From assembly GCF_015207525.1 (NCBI RefSeq), contig NZ_JADEWR010000007.1:205765-269764 (forward strand): DNA of 64,000 bases, written 5' to 3'. The stretch is from Nodosilinea sp. LEGE 06152 (GTDB lineage: Bacteria > Cyanobacteriota > Cyanobacteriia > Phormidesmidales > Phormidesmidaceae). The notes beneath the pieces were generated by a model. That model did no database searches, had not been told where the DNA came from, and saw only the letters and a list, made by a program, of their open reading frames with translations. The position numbers were made by a program, and so were the translations under genes. Positions 6,102 to 44,839 of the stretch are shown here, in pieces (positions within the stretch are counted from its first letter, which is position 1; each line of letters begins with the position of its first letter).

Positions 6102-6334
6102 GCCCGTCGGGAACAATTAATGTACGCACCGTGGGATCTCGCCGCGCTTCCGGGCAAACTAGAGACAAACAACCCGCAGCACCTTGCGTTTCTTGAGTAA
6201 GGTGGCTAAACCCACCCTGACCATTTTGAACAGAGTTCATTACTATTAGAGGAATCTCAGGTAAATGCTCTACCCAAAGGCGCATCTATACTTTCTAGCC
6301 TGATGTTCCATGCTTTCCCAACTCCGAGAGATCC

Positions 6335-7225
6335 ATGGCTGAGCTGACCGAGCAATTTTTAGTCCGGTTTTGGGGCGTGCGTGGGAGCATCGCCTGCCCA
6401 GGGGCGTCTACAGTACGCTACGGCGGTAACACTTCCTGTGTTGAGATGCAGGTGGGCGGCCACCGGCTCATTTTTGACGGCGGCACTGGCTTGCGCGAGC
6501 TGGGTCTAACCCTGCTGAGCGAAATGCCGGTCGAGGCCAATCTCTTCTTTACCCACTCCCACTGGGATCACATCCAGGGGTTTCCCTTCTTTGTACCGGC
6601 CTTTGTGCGGGGTAATCGGTTCAACATTTATGGTGCGGTCGCCCCTAACGGCTCCACCATTGAGCAGCGCCTCAATGACCAAATGCTGCACCCCAATTTT
6701 CCGGTACCGCTACAGGTGATGGGGGCCGACCTCAAATTTTGCGACATCGACGTCGGTGAGACCCTCCGCATTGGCGACATTACCGTTGAAAATGCTCTGC
6801 TCAACCATCCCGGCGAGGCCGTAGGCTATCGGGTGACCTGGCAAAATCAAGTGGCCGCCTACGTCACCGACACCGAACATTACCCAGATCGGCTAGATGA
6901 AAACGTCCTGTGGCTCGCTCGAGATGCAGACGTCATGATCTACGATTCCACCTACACCGACGACGAGTACCACGATCCCAAATCTAGCAAGGTGGGCTGG
7001 GGACACTCCACCTGGCAGGAGGCGGTCAAAGTAGCCAAGGCTGCCGGCGTAAAAACGCTGGTGATCTTTCACCATGACCCAGCCCACGACGACGAATTTA
7101 TGGATCAGGTAGCGGCTCAAACCAAAGCCATGTTCCCTGGGGCGGTAGTTGCTCGCGAAGGCCTGGTCTTAAACCTCACCGCCTCTGCCGCCGTTTCAGT
7201 ACCGACCTCAGTGACCAGCGCTTAG
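6335..7225 (+). CDS. Metallo-beta-lactamase-fold hydrolase
   Basis: A 296-aa MBL-fold protein close to the RNase Z / class II cyclic-nucleotide phosphodiesterase / PhnP branch. The N-terminus reads FWGVRGSIACPG, then RYGGNTSCVEM. The metal-binding motif is THSHWDH (near residue 73), and further conserved elements are NHPGEAVGYRV, YVTDTEHYPD, IYDSTYTDDEY and the late HHDPAHDD. All metal ligands expected of the fold appear present. No signal peptide is seen, so it should be cytoplasmic. The substrate is unknown. It is located between surE and ribF in the same orientation, but with gaps of 233 and 139 bp, so co-transcription is not assured. Confidence 0.85.
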   Translation: MAELTEQFLVRFWGVRGSIACPGASTVRYGGNTSCVEMQVGGHRLIFDGGTGLRELGLTLLSEMPVEANLFFTHSHWDHIQGFPFFVPAFVRGNRFNIYGAVAPNGSTIEQRLNDQMLHPNFPVPLQVMGADLKFCDIDVGETLRIGDITVENALLNHPGEAVGYRVTWQNQVAAYVTDTEHYPDRLDENVLWLARDADVMIYDSTYTDDEYHDPKSSKVGWGHSTWQEAVKVAKAAGVKTLVIFHHDPAHDDEFMDQVAAQTKAMFPGAVVAREGLVLNLTASAAVSVPTSVTSA

Positions 7226-38322: not shown

Positions 38323-38735
38323 GCCTGGATCTGTCGCGATCGCTCAAAGCGCTGTCTAACTCTTCCTTCTCTTTCTCTAGATAGAGAAACGCTGGCTGGA
38401 GAAACCAATTGCTGTCCTTCTTCGTACTGAGGGCGGTGCTGGGTTTGGCCTATTGCCTAGCAAAGTTATGTCCTCTGGCGCTGCCTTTGGTCATACCTCT
38501 GTGGCAGCCGACTTAGAGCTTTACCGGCCCCTCGGCCCTAGTATTCAGTTCGGTTGTGACATCGTCAGGCTGAGCCTTAAACAGCTGGGCTGTAGGTTGT
38601 CCTGGCGTTGTGCTGGTCAGCTTGCGCCACTCCTTAAACTTTGCTGGCTATGGCCCTAACAGCACCGCGAGATTGCTCAAGGCAATTGAAAGCCCAATCA
38701 ACGTTTCGATGCTGCGTCTACAAACGAGGACATCT
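38323..38735. other. 413-bp gap between cobS and DUF4394/CHRD gene
   Basis: No convincing coding sequence if the downstream gene starts at 38736. A small dyad TTTCTCT/AGAGAAA lies at 38372-38389. The ribosome-binding sequence ACGAGGACATCT directly precedes the ATG at 38736. Promoter elements presumably lie here but cannot be assigned. Confidence 0.45.
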
Positions 38736-40550
38736 ATGCAACGTCTTATTGCTCTGACTGACAACAACTCGCTGATTTCTATTGACCCCCAAGATCTCAG
38801 CTCAGCAACGTCTACTCCAGTCACCGGCATTGATGGCACCCTAATTGGCATTGACACCCGCCCAGCCGACGGGTTGATCTACGGTCTCACTACAGCCAAT
38901 CAGCTCTATACCCTCAACCCCGATGGGTTTAGCTCTGGCGACTTCAGCGGTCTGTTCACGCTAACTCAAGACGAAGCCGCCGTGCTGCTAGACGACGGCT
39001 TTTACCTCAACCTGCACACCGCAGCCTTTGGCGGCGGCGAACTGCGCGGGCAGCTCAATGTTCAACCCGAAAACGATATCGTTGCCTTTGGCCTGCCCCT
39101 AGAGGAAGCCCAGGAAGTTGGCGCTATGGCACCGCCGCCGGATGGTCCAGCCATGGGCCGTTTCGACGTGGTCTATGACGACGCTTCCAACACCCTGCAG
39201 ATCAGCGGCACCTTTAGTGATTTAACCGCAGGGCTCATGCCCGTTGGCAACACTGACGTCGAAGGTAACCCCCAAAGTTCTATTCATCTCCATCGCGGGG
39301 TAGCGGGTGAAAATGGCCCCATTCTGCGCAACTTTACCGTAAATGACGACGGCAGCTTCGGCGGCACCTTTACTCTGACGGAAGAAGAAGAGGCTCTGCT
39401 GCTCGATCAGGCTCTATACGTCAATCTCCACACCGACAGTTTTGGCGGGGGCGAACTGCGCGGTCAAGTCGCTGTCGCCGTGGAGGGCGATGTAGTTGAG
39501 CTGGGGGTGCCGATTGAAGAAGCTCAGCAGGTGGGCACTGCAGTACCCGATGGGCCTGCTACCGGCTCCTTTGATGCTATTTATGACGTTGCTACTGGCC
39601 AGCTGGGGGTGCAGGGTACCTTTGCTGGTCTGAGTGCCCCTCTCTTGCCTGTCGGTGGGGCAGACAGTGAGGGCAATCCTCAGAGTGCCATTCACCTGCA
39701 CCAGGGTATGGCCGGGGAGAATGGCCCCATTGTGCGCAACCTTGCCGCTACTAATGATGTGGCCACTCTGGTTAGCACCCTGTCGGTGCCTTTCGAAGGC
39801 GGCGTGGTGTCGGGCTTTGACTTTAACCCCGTAGCCGATCGCCTGCGGCTGGTGGGCGACAACGACCAGAACTTCCGCATCAATGTGGAGACTGGAGCGG
39901 TGATTGAAGACGGCACCTTGGCCTTTGCTATGGAGGACGCCAACGCTGGGGTTAACCCTAACGTAACGGCGGCAGCCTATACCAATTCCTTTGCTGGCAC
40001 CACCAGCACGGCGCTGTACAACATCGATCCGCTGCTCGACCAGCTGCTGCTGCAAAGCCCCCCGAACGACGGCACCCTGGTGACGGTGGGGGATCTAGGA
40101 GTTGATTTTGACGTGGTCGGCGGGTTCGATATTTTCTCCACCGCCGAGGGTGACAACGCTGCCTTTGCGGTGTCTGACAGCACCCTCTACGCCATCGACC
40201 TTGAGACTGGAGCCGCCACCAGCCTGGGCACCCTTGGCGGTGGCGTTGGCAATCTGCTTGGTTTCGTGGCCATGGCCAACCCAGTGGTGGGCGAGAAGCC
40301 CGACGATCTGACCAACCCTGGGAATGGCGGTGTGGAACTACCCCTGCCCGAGGGGATTCCCGGCGGGCCAGCGATAATCGACAACCTGAGAGACCTGTTA
40401 GACACTCTGTCTATGTCGCCGCTGGGGCAGGACTTGGCAGCGCTGGGATCGACTATTGCGAGCAGCACTGTTGACCTGGCGGCCCTGCTGCCAACGGAAG
40501 CTGAGCTTAATGCTGCGATCGCCGATCTGTCTGCATCCTTGGGCTTCTAG
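38736..40550 (+). CDS. DUF4394 protein with nested, permuted CHRD pair
   Basis: A 604-aa protein from the ATG at 38736 (GAGG 8 nt upstream). Residues 1-63 are the start of a DUF4394 domain (RLIALTDNNSLISIDPQ..PADGLIYGLTTANQLYTLNP). Residues about 64-341 (38925-39758) interrupt it with CHRD-type sequence. The order is a CHRD C-half (FYLNLHTAAFGGGELRGQL), one complete CHRD (SIHLHRGVAGENGPILRN..VNLHTDSFGGGELRGQV), and a CHRD N-half (AIHLHQGMAGENGPIVRN). DUF4394 then resumes (VATLVSTLSVPFEGGVVSGF..DFNPVADRLRLVGD) to about residue 517. A Leu/Ala-rich tail follows. There is no clear signal peptide. Its function is unknown; both domain families are typical of extracellular or surface proteins. Confidence 0.85.
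   Translation: MQRLIALTDNNSLISIDPQDLSSATSTPVTGIDGTLIGIDTRPADGLIYGLTTANQLYTLNPDGFSSGDFSGLFTLTQDEAAVLLDDGFYLNLHTAAFGGGELRGQLNVQPENDIVAFGLPLEEAQEVGAMAPPPDGPAMGRFDVVYDDASNTLQISGTFSDLTAGLMPVGNTDVEGNPQSSIHLHRGVAGENGPILRNFTVNDDGSFGGTFTLTEEEEALLLDQALYVNLHTDSFGGGELRGQVAVAVEGDVVELGVPIEEAQQVGTAVPDGPATGSFDAIYDVATGQLGVQGTFAGLSAPLLPVGGADSEGNPQSAIHLHQGMAGENGPIVRNLAATNDVATLVSTLSVPFEGGVVSGFDFNPVADRLRLVGDNDQNFRINVETGAVIEDGTLAFAMEDANAGVNPNVTAAAYTNSFAGTTSTALYNIDPLLDQLLLQSPPNDGTLVTVGDLGVDFDVVGGFDIFSTAEGDNAAFAVSDSTLYAIDLETGAATSLGTLGGGVGNLLGFVAMANPVVGEKPDDLTNPGNGGVELPLPEGIPGGPAIIDNLRDLLDTLSMSPLGQDLAALGSTIASSTVDLAALLPTEAELNAAIADLSASLGF
38925..39758 (+). repeat. Two CHRD periods in circularly permuted register
   Basis: The insert is 278 codons. 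The GGGELRGQ elements are 138 codons apart, and the G(R/S)FD(V/A)(V/I)YD elements 136 codons apart, so the insert equals two repeat periods. The break falls in the same loop at both ends: the last residues (GPIVRNLAATND) would join directly to the first (GFSSGDFSGLFTLT) to rebuild a full CHRD, as in GPILRNFTVNDDGSFGGTFTLT in the intact copy. Confidence 0.8.
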
Positions 40551-40594: not shown

Positions 40595-41260
40595 CTACCG
40601 AATGGCCCCCAGCGTATTTTTCCAGCTTAGCTCTTTGCCCAGCACCATCAGCGCCTTTTGGTCGGCCCCGGTAAACAGACCGCTGTCTACCAATTCGGCC
40701 AGCACTTGTTGGGCGAGCTGGGCGGCAAACATACCCCCTGACCGAAGCAGGTGGCTGTAGTAGCTGAACTGCGTTTGCCCATCCTGATTGCAGTGAAAGC
40801 TGTGAACCTGCTCCGGCGATAGGCAGTACACAGGCGTGTTGGCTGGCACCACCACCCGAGGAATGCCGTGTTTGCCGTAGCGCTGGTTGCCCTCGCCCTC
40901 AAGGGTACCCACCAGCACTACCCCCAGCAGGGTGCGAGTTTCCTGCACCAGGTCGGGGGTAAACAGCGGGTCGGGTTCGCTAGAGAGCCGAGGTCCGCTG
41001 TTAAAGAATAGCGGATTGAATAACTGCGAGTTGTACACCAGCCCCACGGCCCAGTGACGGCTGTCGTTGTCAAAGCTGACGAACTGACCAAAGCCGCAGT
41101 CTTCCGGCGTTGGCGGCGAACAGACATCCTGGGCATCGTCAACCTGTACCACGTAGTCGCAGTGGGAATTAGACTTCACCACTTTGCCAAGGCGACAGGG
41201 GGGCAGGGCCGTAGCGAACAAATCCATAGGGCGCTCTAGGGGTGGAACATGGGTACTCAT
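40595..41260 (-). CDS. Conserved hypothetical protein, possible HerA/HAS-barrel-like N-terminus
   Basis: A 221-aa soluble protein. The N-terminal ~90 residues (LGKVVKSNSHCDYVVQVDDAQD..CGFGQFVSFDNDSRHWAVGLVYNSQLFNPLF) look like a small beta-barrel of the type found at the N-terminus of HerA-like ATPases, but no ATPase motifs follow. The C-terminal part is helical (GMFAAQLAQQVLAELVDSGLF). The fold suggestion is weak inference. An alternative start is the ATG at 41227. The flanking genes do not reveal a role. Confidence 0.6.
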   Translation of the reverse strand: MSTHVPPLERPMDLFATALPPCRLGKVVKSNSHCDYVVQVDDAQDVCSPPTPEDCGFGQFVSFDNDSRHWAVGLVYNSQLFNPLFFNSGPRLSSEPDPLFTPDLVQETRTLLGVVLVGTLEGEGNQRYGKHGIPRVVVPANTPVYCLSPEQVHSFHCNQDGQTQFSYYSHLLRSGGMFAAQLAQQVLAELVDSGLFTGADQKALMVLGKELSWKNTLGAIR

Positions 41261-41419: not shown

Positions 41420-42112
41420 CTACAGCGCAAAGCTCTCGTCGAAGTCGCTGCGGGTCATGGGCTGGCTGACTTCAAGCCCCTCGCCGCCCAGCAGGGTCAG
41501 CGGTTTGCCGTCTACCGAAATCCACACGGGAGCATCGGGGTTAAACGCGGTAGCGGTGTAGATCACCTGGCCCAAACGACCCATCATCGCAGCGCTGCCG
41601 CCGCCGGTTTCAAACTCACTCGACAAATCGACGTGGACACCGTCGGCCTCGACGGAGGCGTCAAGCAGCTGGGTTTGTTCAGGAATGGTGCTAAACGCCT
41701 GCTGGCTGGGGTCGCCTGACTTGGAGAGCAGATCGCCAAAGGCTGCGGTAACCTGCTCTGAGGGCGAGGCACTGGCTGCGACGGTAATAGGCTGAGCCAC
41801 CAGTTCAAAGCTTGTCCCGTTGTCTTTGAGCCAGTAGACCTGGCCGGTCACTTCGGCTGGGGCGGGCTGGGTGACAGGGTCTTTGGGAGCCGTTTCTTCA
41901 ACGCTGGGGGTCGTTAATGGGGCCGAAACCTCTGGCAGCGCCAGCATAGGATCGGTCTCGATGTCGATATTTGGAAACTCGGCTACCGGGGGCGTTGGGT
42001 TGAGGGCACGCCAGGTAAACCAGGCCACAGATCCGCCCGAGGCCAGCACTAGGGTGGTCAAACCAGCCAGAATGCCGAGGGGAATTTGCCGTAGCTTATT
42101 TCTGTAGTGCAT
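41420..42112 (-). CDS. GerMN-domain lipoprotein-like/secreted protein
   Basis: A 230-aa protein with an N-terminal basic/hydrophobic signal-anchor (residues 8-32, PLGILAGLTTLVLASGGSVAW) and a Pro/Thr/Glu-rich linker. The GerMN domain spans about 90-210 (VYWLKDNGTSFELVAQPITV, then AFGDLLSK, TIPEQTQLLDASVEADGVHVDLSSEF, GRLGQVIYTATAFN, VWISVDGKPL). GerMN domains occur in periplasmic/cell-wall-associated proteins of spore formers and cyanobacteria. The biochemical role is unclear. It is followed on the other side by the DUF2993 gene in the same orientation. Confidence 0.85.
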   Translation of the reverse strand: MHYRNKLRQIPLGILAGLTTLVLASGGSVAWFTWRALNPTPPVAEFPNIDIETDPMLALPEVSAPLTTPSVEETAPKDPVTQPAPAEVTGQVYWLKDNGTSFELVAQPITVAASASPSEQVTAAFGDLLSKSGDPSQQAFSTIPEQTQLLDASVEADGVHVDLSSEFETGGGSAAMMGRLGQVIYTATAFNPDAPVWISVDGKPLTLLGGEGLEVSQPMTRSDFDESFAL

Positions 42113-42165: not shown

Positions 42166-43002
42166 TTAGGGCAGAGGAGGGACAGCTTCTTGAGCTGGCT
42201 GTCGAGATAACAAGGGGGAGGTTGGATCTATTCTGGCAAAAATGGCAATATCTAGCTCATTGTCACGCACTTTGAAGTTGATCACGCGGGCAACCACGCC
42301 CAGCGCCTCTAGCCGCCGCAGGGTAAGGCGTTCCTGTGCCCCCTGCACAAACGATTCGAGCAGCTGGGGCGGGGTGTCTTCGCCGTCTACGGTAATGATG
42401 GGGTCGACTAGGGCAAACCGATGGCCGTTGAGAACAGTCAGCCCCAGGTCGATGCTAATGGCAATGTTTTCCTGGGTAACCCGATCTTGGAGATCGACCA
42501 CAACACGAAAGCGATCGCCCTCTAGAAACTTCAGCGACGGGTTGGCCAGGCCGTAGCGGTTTTGTTCACGCTCCCCCACGGCCCCCGGCAGGTTAAATTG
42601 CAGCGTATCGAGCCAGCCCTGCACTAGGGGCGACTGAAGGAAGGCATTCAAATCGTCGTCGTTCAGGCGCAGACGCAGCGCCGCCTGGGCCGGTTCATCC
42701 AGCACCAGTTCGCCCTGGCGCAGGCGACCGAGATCGACATCTACGGCGTCGGTTTCTATATCTATAGAGTCAATGCGCAGGCCGGGCAGCTGCCGGGTTT
42801 CGACCCCCCGGGCGGCGATCCGGGTGTGGTCGATGCGACCGCCTGCCAGCTGGTAGTTGGGCACATTGTCGATGCGCACCTCTAAGGTTTCGGCCCCGGC
42901 TAGCTGATCGCGCAGGGCAGCCTCGGCCAGGGTGTCGACCACCACGCCTCCACTACCCACCACCCCCAGCAGGGCCGAGAGAATTATGGTGATCAGTTCC
43001 AT
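42166..43002 (-). CDS. DUF2993 (LmeA-like) protein
   Basis: A protein of about 278 aa beginning MELITIILSALLGVVGSGGV, a signal or membrane segment. The DUF2993 region follows (VRIDNVPNYQLAGGRIDHTRIAARGV, then TDAVDVDLGRLRQG, LNDDDLNAFLQSP, and RRLEALGVVARVINFKVRDNELDIAIFARI). I use the ATG at 43002; the longer reading to 43053 overlaps proS. DUF2993 members are bacterial envelope proteins, and one mycobacterial member (LmeA) is a mannosyltransferase-associated factor. The function in cyanobacteria is unknown. It is located 22 bp past the proS stop codon on the same strand. Confidence 0.85.
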   Translation of the reverse strand: MELITIILSALLGVVGSGGVVVDTLAEAALRDQLAGAETLEVRIDNVPNYQLAGGRIDHTRIAARGVETRQLPGLRIDSIDIETDAVDVDLGRLRQGELVLDEPAQAALRLRLNDDDLNAFLQSPLVQGWLDTLQFNLPGAVGEREQNRYGLANPSLKFLEGDRFRVVVDLQDRVTQENIAISIDLGLTVLNGHRFALVDPIITVDGEDTPPQLLESFVQGAQERLTLRRLEALGVVARVINFKVRDNELDIAIFARIDPTSPLLSRQPAQEAVPPLP

Positions 43003-43024
43003 AGTCCGTCCTAGGTAGGTGGGG

Positions 43025-44839
43025 CTAGCGACTGGCCAGCAGTTCGTCGTCAATCCAGCCCTTGACCAGGGCCACGACCTCGGCCAGGGCTACTTCTTGC
43101 ACAATGCCGGTGGACCGCTCGACCACCTCAACCTTGCCATCGCCCAGGGCGCGCCCGGTGACAATGCGGTAGGGAATGCCAATCAGGTCAGCGTCTTTGA
43201 ACTTGACCCCGGCTCGCTCGTCGCGATCGTCGAGCAGCGCCTCGACTCCCACCGCCAGCAGCTCTTTGTAGATCGCCTTGGCGGCTTCGACCTGCAGGTC
43301 GTCGCCCATGTTGGGAATCACCACGATCGCCTGGTAGGGCGCGATCGCCACCGGCCACACAATGCCGTTTTTGTCGTAGGACTGCTCCACCGCCGCCTGG
43401 GCCAGGCGCGACACCCCCACCCCGTAGCAGCCCATCACCAGGGGGTGCTCAGCGCCGCTTTCGCTGGTGTAGGTGGCCCCCAACGCCTGGGAGTATTTGG
43501 TACCCAGCTGAAAAATGTGGCCAATCTCGATACCGCGCGCGGTTTGCAGGGTTTGGCTGGGGTCGTGCAGGGCGCGATCGCCCGCCGCCGCCTTGCGCAC
43601 ATCGACCACGATTTTGGGCAGGGTAAAGTCTTTGCCCCAGTTGCCGCCCACGGTGTGGTAGCCCGACTCGTTGGAGCCGGTGACAAAGTTTTTCAGGGGT
43701 TCAGCGGTGCGATCGCACAGTCGCAGAAACTTAGGCTCAATATCTTTGCCGCCCTTAATATAGTCGTCGCCCAGGTCGGGGGCCATATAGCCCAGGGGCA
43801 GGGGCTGGGCCGCCCACTGGCGCTGGGCCTCCTCGTCGGGCACTGCCAGCGACAGCACGGCGGTACCGCCGTAGTCAGTGGCCAATTTGGCTAGCTCATT
43901 GGTGAGCTTCACCTCGTTGACATCCTGGTCGCCGCGAATGCTGACGATCACCAGCAGCACCCGGCCATTGTCAAATACCGCCTGGTACAGCACGTTCTTC
44001 ACGATCTGAGTGGGCGAGCACTTGAGAAACGTGGCCAGCGACTCAATCGTGGGGGTATTGGGCGTATCGAGTTTTTCAAACTTAGTAAAGGTTGAAGGCA
44101 CTGCATCGACGGGGCGCGACACGGCCTTCTCTACGTTGGCGGCGTACTTGCCGTCTTCGGTGTAGAGCACTTCGTCTTCGCCCGCCTCAGCTAGCACCAT
44201 AAACTCGGTCGAGCCCGACCCACCGATCGCCCCCGAATCCGCATCCACCGCCCGAAACTCCAGGCCACAGCGGCGCAGAATGTTGCTGTAGGCGGTGTAC
44301 ATTTCCTGGTAAGTCTCTTTGAGGCTGCTCTCGTCGGTATGGAACGAGTAGCCGTCTTTCATAATGAACTCGCGGCCGCGCATAAGGCCAAAGCGGGGCC
44401 GAATCTCATCGCGAAACTTGGTCTGAATCTGGTAGAGATGCAGCGGTAGCTGTCGGTAGGAGCGCACCATGTCGCGGGCGATCGTGGTGATCACCTCCTC
44501 GTGGGTAGGGCCAAGGCCAACCTCCTGCTGGCGGCGATCGACCAGCGAGAACATAATGCCCTCGGCCTTGGTATAGGTGTCCCACCGGCCCGACTCTCGC
44601 CACAGCTCAGCAGGCTGAAGCTGGGGCAGCAGGCACTCCTGTGCGCCGGTCGCGTTCATTTCGTCGCGCACAATGTCGGAAATTTTGTTCAGCACCCGCC
44701 AGAGCAGGGGCAGATAGGCGTAGACCCCGCTGGTGATCCGCCGCATATAGCCCGCCCGCAGCAGCAGCTTATGGCTAGGAATCTCAGCCTCGGCCGGTTC
44801 TTCCCGCAGGGTGACAAACAGCATTTGGGATAGACGCAT
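43025..44839 (-). CDS. proS: Prolyl-tRNA synthetase
   Basis: Class II synthetase of 604 aa. The catalytic core starts at the N-terminus ([45 protein letters not shown]). Motif 2 is around [32 protein letters not shown], with [10 protein letters not shown] ahead of it. The central INS editing domain (about 225-400) is present, so this is the bacterial long form, able to edit Ala-tRNA-Pro. Motif 3 is [18 protein letters not shown], and the anticodon-binding domain forms the C-terminus. The gene is complete. Confidence 0.96.

Follow-up and report, generated by a model that had tools for sequence, protein, structure and literature searches.

The window, a 64,000-nucleotide stretch of DNA from Nodosilinea sp. 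LEGE 06152, encodes a protein in which a DUF4394 domain is interrupted by CHRD sequence in circularly permuted order. Sequence comparison shows that relatives have this re-ordered insert too, in one or two whole units, which indicates that the architecture is genuine and inherited and did not come from faulty sequencing or annotation. We consider it likely that the protein is a DUF4394 propeller carrying a permuted guest with the superoxide dismutase (SOD)-like fold of CHRD domains, that the terminal halves of the insert close one barrel with a second barrel held in the linker between them, and that the arrangement originated once and now resides in several hosts.

Domain layout of the window protein

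The first-pass annotation of this DNA had proposed that a DUF4394 domain is split by a CHRD-type stretch, and a Pfam scan of the translated frame matched both families above their curated cutoffs in the expected order (Table 1). DUF4394 (PF14339) was found in two stretches, with profile positions 2-58 at 38772-38933 and 52-223 at 39741-40244 (230 profile positions in all; 254.5 bits against a cutoff of 29.6; E of 1e-75 overall). CHRD (PF07452) was found in three stretches (146.7 bits against a cutoff of 24.1; E of 6.6e-43), comprising a C-half (profile positions 80-117), one complete copy (4-117, spanning 39096-39470), and an N-half (from position 5 onwards), which is the order first proposed. 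The two DUF4394 pieces thus do flank CHRD sequence, but their borders had to be moved to residues 1-62 and 343-503, and the insert, given at first as 278 residues, measures 280 (residues 63-342) once its junctions are set by orthologues that lack it. The insert spans two periods with the spacings originally reported, 138 codons between equivalent C-half motifs (FTLT at 74 and 212, ELRGQ at 102 and 240) and 136 codons between equivalent N-half motifs (HLH at about 183 and 319, NGPI starting at 193 and 329). The ATG at 38736, with AGGA just 5' of it, is a sensible start, and the frame is already open from a GTG at 38610.

Table 1. Features of the DUF4394/CHRD gene in window coordinates
Feature	Position	Strand	Basis
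Whole gene, 604 aa: DUF4394 propeller (predicted), nested permuted CHRD insert, C-terminal tail	38736..40550	+	Pfam scan, translated frame
DUF4394 start (residues 1-62): opening strands of the propeller, the last being LYTLNP	38736..38921	+	DUF4394 profile 2-58; DSSP strands
Insert CHRD C-half no. 1 (C1), residues 63-110, with NLHT and GELRGQ	38922..39065	+	CHRD profile 80-117
Insert CHRD N-half no. 2 (N2), residues 111-203, opening part of whole CHRD	39066..39344	+	CHRD profile 4-117
Insert CHRD C-half no. 2 (C2), residues 204-248, closing part of whole CHRD	39345..39479	+	CHRD profile 4-117
Insert CHRD N-half no. 3 (N3), residues 249-342; its end is the hairpin turn where C-half no. 1 starts	39480..39761	+	CHRD profile from 5
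DUF4394 remainder, residues 343-503, restarts with ATLVSTLS	39762..40244	+	Profile 52-223, 216 bits; alignment with intact orthologues
C-terminal tail, without a Pfam family match	40245..40550	+	Pfam scan

The insert cost the host no residue

DUF4394 copies without the insert occupy the syntenic locus in three genomes (G002, G024, and G016). In the alignment, the insert-less orthologues read YTIDPS directly followed by SGAATLVSTLS, and the window protein reads YTLNP-DGFSSGDF...(280 aa)...VRNLAATNDV-ATLVSTLS. Since the insert-less copies align straight across the junction, the insert was gained without the loss of a single host residue, and the comparison with insert-less homologues called for in the first-pass annotation has thereby mapped the junction. 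The downstream neighbours of the gene (40595-41260, 41420-42112, and 42166-43053) are conserved in G002, G004, G016, and G024, and the upstream genes of the locus are conserved as well in G002 and G024. In a tree of the neighbouring genes, the window genome (G000) and G004, both of which bear the insert at this locus, are sisters with modest support (80/79), which fits a single gain at the locus.

G004 has two DUF4394 copies, with the insert in the first, and the window gene has one. On the 3' side of the insert (39762-40550), the window DNA is closer to the second G004 copy than to the first, as seen in 60-base blocks (e.g., 97% versus 80% and 90% versus 68%), and looks like the product of a deletion by recombination between copies. 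The window gene is thus probably a fusion of two DUF4394 copies, one copy having been lost through recombination. Separately, the insert-less orthologue of Nodosilinea sp. LEGE 07298 (L031, G016:C71, ~6200-6500) has a frame that is broken near the same hairpin turn, giving frames of 112 aa and 272 aa; this copy would be either a pseudogene or an assembly error.

The same insert recurs in four families of cyanobacteria

A profile built from three insert-bearing proteins was compared with ~700 distinct cyanobacterial genomes (handles running to at least G711), with the best candidates per genome being scored in the two largest searches. The insert was found in the same host turn in at least 9 of these genomes, the window genome included, and these genomes belong to four families: G000, G004, and G007 are of the same genus, G029 and G031 of the same family, and G273, G230, G539, and G691 of three other families. 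Eight of the nine carry two-unit inserts of 279 to 284 aa, namely, the window genome (280 aa), G004, G007, G029, G031, G230, G273, and G539. Named records with the insert include those of filamentous cyanobacterium CCT1 and Nodosilinea sp. P-1105 (accessions include PYER01000028.1 and NZ_SMDQ01000004.1). No insert was found among the 42 genomes of the order to which G142 belongs, and a scan of viral contigs for CHRD and for the whole protein returned no relatives.

These recurrences bear directly on whether the arrangement is a misassembly or an annotation artefact, an explanation for which the CHRD repeat itself, and nothing further, would speak. Given that matching junctions are present in at least eight other genomes from independent assemblies, among them PYER01000028.1, NZ_SMDQ01000004.1, and the single-contig assembly of G230, we give an artefact virtually no credence, in agreement with the first-pass annotation, which had judged one unlikely.

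The remaining carrier, G691, differs in unit number. Its insert is 144 aa long and consists of one unit, a C-half followed by an N-half, in a gene on the minus strand (L112:4578-6107; 510 aa) that reads ...LYTIDP-SSFDDGTFTGTFTLT...GELRGQ...SAIHIHNGVAGQNGPIIRSLTTSDGV-ATLASTLS.... Together with the insert-less syntenic orthologues, this one-unit homologue corroborates the proposal that an integral number of CHRD repeats sits in the host in permuted register. Since the C-half and N-half of G691 have no alternative partner in the chain, the terminal halves of an insert would belong together, and we regard this sequence as the strongest evidence for their pairing.

G539 (L111:3386-6211) and G111 (L100) encode proteins that are alike in having two DUF4394 domains each and similar C-terminal repeats. 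Of the two, only the G539 protein carries the permuted insert, which lies in its second DUF4394 domain.

The permutation likely arose once and resides in several hosts

When 17 permuted units were compared with 11 normal-register CHRDs of the same phylum, the permuted units formed one clade (ultrafast bootstrap, 100; SH-aLRT, 99) relative to this sample, which is small and was chosen by similarity. The clade was recovered from the N-halves alone (99/97) and, less firmly, from the C-halves alone (94/90). The hosts behave otherwise: with the insert removed, insert-bearing DUF4394 domains are scattered among insert-less ones in the host tree, and a single clade of insert hosts is rejected (AU test, P = 0.003 with eight rows, the recombinant G000 having been left out; P = 0.035 when G539 is dropped as well). 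Given that the permuted units are monophyletic and their hosts are not, the data point to one permutation in several hosts. In our reading, the permutation happened once, and the cassette then either passed from one DUF4394 gene to another, which would have proceeded by recombination through the conserved flanks, or was lost through recombination with insert-less copies.

The scatter of the hosts could also reflect several independent insertions of CHRD into DUF4394, with the common register being set by the geometry of the host turn, and rejection of a single host clade is what such a history would produce. The permuted units nevertheless form one clade, also from each half separately, and share an identical junction and nearly equal lengths, such that one origin with later transfer or partial loss is the more economical account; we therefore consider independent insertions improbable.

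For a single origin, the most likely source would be a tandem array of ordinary CHRDs, from which a piece that began midway through one domain and ended midway through the next landed once in the host turn. Tandem normal-register CHRDs with short linkers do exist, as in G059, which has three copies. The number of units would have changed afterwards by tandem duplication or recombination. We also considered an excised circle of two CHRDs that re-integrated, which fits the register but is superfluous: since a mid-CHRD-to-mid-CHRD piece of a tandem array already has the order seen, a circular intermediate is unneeded. In comparisons of individual units, the G691 C-half is nearest the C2 copies, and its N-half leans towards the N2 copies.

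Predicted fold and proposed closure of the terminal halves

The full-length protein was modelled with AlphaFold2 from a shallow, 12-row alignment, giving a low-confidence model (mean pLDDT, 59; pTM, 0.50), with region 401-453 being poorly modelled. The host part of this model (range 1-515) resembles the six-bladed YWTD propeller of LRP6 (Z score, 12.7; 173 residues; root mean square deviation [RMSD], 3.7), and the DUF4394 host is accordingly predicted to be a six-bladed propeller of the LRP6 type. When the sequences of solved structures were searched, the DUF4394 profile gave no convincing relative, and the CHRD profile gave chordin as its sole significant match. DSSP assigned host strands at 3-8, 12-17, 20-28, 36-41, 48-52, and 56-60 ahead of the insert, which lies between host strands 56-60 and 343-348; the guest strand 332-341 ends one residue from the latter. 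By our assignment on this model, the insert site would be the turn between the third and fourth strands of one blade.

We also modelled one C-half/N-half unit by itself (residues 203-342), using an alignment of six such units. The resulting model, likewise from a shallow alignment, was of middling confidence (mean pLDDT, 64; pTM, 0.63; 6 rows), and both programs ranked an engineered permutant of human SOD1, 5J0F, as its top match among solved structures (VIA Z score, 8.0 over 96 residues with an RMSD of 2.8, the next match having a Z score of 5.8; the Foldseek E of 0.01 is weak). Residues 1-122 of the fragment model aligned to residues 12-114 of the 5J0F chain, leaving the last guest strand unmatched, which fits a barrel opened one hairpin further along than in 5J0F. 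A single C/N unit is thus predicted to fold as a permuted barrel.

These models suggest how the two folds could be joined. The guest CHRD, a SOD-like Greek-key barrel, would be circularly permuted at its beta5/beta6 turn and placed in the turn of one propeller blade, such that host strand C leads into guest beta6 and guest beta5 leads into host strand D, splicing two hairpins end to end. Within the window insert, C1 and N3 would close into one permuted barrel, and the second, whole CHRD, which G691 does not have, would be strung in the linker between them. That the terminal halves rebuild a whole CHRD, as initially suggested, is supported by G691, by core residues conserved alike in terminal and inner halves, and by the predicted SOD-like permutant fold. 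The accompanying idea of a "ring-like" or "velcro" module holds only in part: the terminal halves most likely do close one barrel, but there is no sign of a multibarrel ring, and the closure would be ordinary hairpin pairing at the beta5/beta6 turn, with the propeller not being closed by the insert. The N-terminal ~62 residues belong to DUF4394, the two halves of the unit modelled alone are predicted to fold together, and the repeat recurs in independent assemblies; none of the three outcomes that the first-pass annotation had named as grounds for abandoning its proposal was seen.

The halves could instead pair in a shifted manner, C1 with N2 and C2 with N3, or they could pair between molecules to give domain-swapped dimers or fibres. 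Either pairing draws on identical elements, and the C-N-C-N order permits the shifted one on paper. A lone C-N unit is predicted to fold, such that both are feasible in physical terms. The full-length model, being of low confidence, does not discriminate between them, and the unit trees did not tell C1+N2/C2+N3 pairing from N2+C2/N3+C1 pairing. Under shifted pairing, however, the short NDDGS turn of the N2/C2 hairpin would have to bridge two barrels, yet it has the length found in ordinary CHRDs, and the single C-half and N-half of G691 are tethered to one host turn, where mutual closure is simplest. We therefore regard shifted or intermolecular pairing as unlikely.

Conserved core and candidate metal site

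The motifs HxH, NGPI, YxNxH, and GELRGQ are invariant in 17/17 permuted units, with the terminal halves being the same as the inner ones. Since decay would otherwise be expected, this invariant core suggests that C-half no. 1 and N-half no. 3 form a domain. It also speaks to the idea that the gene is decayed or chimeric and that its half-CHRDs are functionless remnants of a rearrangement, kept by chance. Although the window copy is itself recombinant and the frame of the related G016 copy is interrupted close to this turn, the window gene has an open frame, and every core invariant is retained in the terminal halves at 50 to 70% identity across four families, leaving decay with only the slimmest of chances.

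Within this core, three histidines (HxH plus NxH) are invariant in 17/17 units, corresponding to residues 94, 184, 186, 232, 320, and 322 of the window protein. SOD has four copper ligands, three of which these histidines resemble, and this set may constitute a metal site. If the window insert closes as proposed, its barrel would combine H94, near the start of the insert, with H320 and H322, near its end. An active Cu,Zn superoxide dismutase is recognized by four copper-ligand histidines together with metal-binding loops IV and VII, whereas the permuted units have three invariant histidines and metal loops that are too short; they may instead bind copper only. A bolder scheme, which we view as doubtful, is that a permuted three-histidine barrel, possibly copper binding and assembled from segments more than 220 residues apart, is hairpin-spliced onto a blade, coupling binding at either fold to its neighbour, with the cassette spreading by recombination and varying in unit number.

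Both domain types, DUF4394 and CHRD, are usually extracellular. The window protein has no obvious N-terminal leader, and two relatives (G273 and G230) carry RTX repeats. The Pfam scan found no such repeats in the window protein, which therefore lacks the C-terminal hallmark of a type I secreted RTX protein. Because of the RTX repeats in these relatives, the missing leader, and the usual extracellular setting, our guess is that this is an exported, probably leaderless and type I-like, surface protein whose barrels would serve as a rigid lateral arm for binding a ligand or matrix.

Relation to known systems

Engineered switches such as cpGFP sensors and permuted beta-lactamase in maltose-binding protein carry, within a loop of the host, a guest domain in circularly permuted form, so that both folds are coupled. 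The window protein likewise has a permuted guest spliced into a host loop, but its architecture is natural and common to several families, and the resemblance is one of architecture. Its hairpin-to-hairpin splice would be a natural version of the trick that designers of switch proteins use artificially; under the bolder, doubtful scheme of coupled binding, the window protein would be a natural counterpart of these constructs.

Among natural proteins, some of the insertional domains of RNA polymerase have been described as circularly permuted themselves (Protein Sci. 2026, PMC13114784), and they share with the window protein the combination of domain insertion and circular permutation. The CHRD guest differs from them in that its units, single or paired in tandem, occupy one and the same turn of the host and apparently stem from one event. 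It also resides in hosts of several backgrounds and architectures, including RTX tails and a second DUF4394 domain. The laboratory Cu,Zn-SOD permutant P4/5 (5J0F) is, like the modelled CHRD unit, a SOD-like Greek-key barrel whose chain is cut in one loop and joined up at another place; it is engineered, free-standing, and opened at beta4/beta5, in contrast to the natural CHRD guest, which lies within a host domain and would be opened at beta5/beta6 by our own strand assignment. The CHRD domains of chordin have been solved as tandem SOD-like eight-stranded Greek-key barrels (PDB 9RD6; PMC13382577) and are of the same family as the insert. Chordin has four normal-register CHRDs outside any other domain, whereas the insert is permuted and nested, and the chordin barrels do not have conserved metal-site histidines, whereas the permuted units keep three.

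Among the open papers searched, we found none that mentions DUF4394, none that joins "CHRD domain" with "circular permutation," and none that joins circular permutation, domain insertion, and beta-propeller. Nor did we find a report of the DUF4394/CHRD pair, of a natural permutant with a variable unit number at one site, or of one permutation across several hosts. The combination of insertion and permutation is already known; what is new to us is that the number of units varies and that one apparent origin is spread over several hosts. This clean natural case offers for comparison the insert-less host, the one-unit and two-unit forms, and related CHRDs arranged in tandem in normal register, such that the path from tandem repeat through circular permutation to domain insertion is directly testable.

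Normal-register CHRDs also occur inside large proteins of G054 (L106), G056 (L107), and G059 (C18, L105) that resemble extracellular nucleotidases or phosphatases. CHRD thus seems to have been used as an inserted domain more than once.
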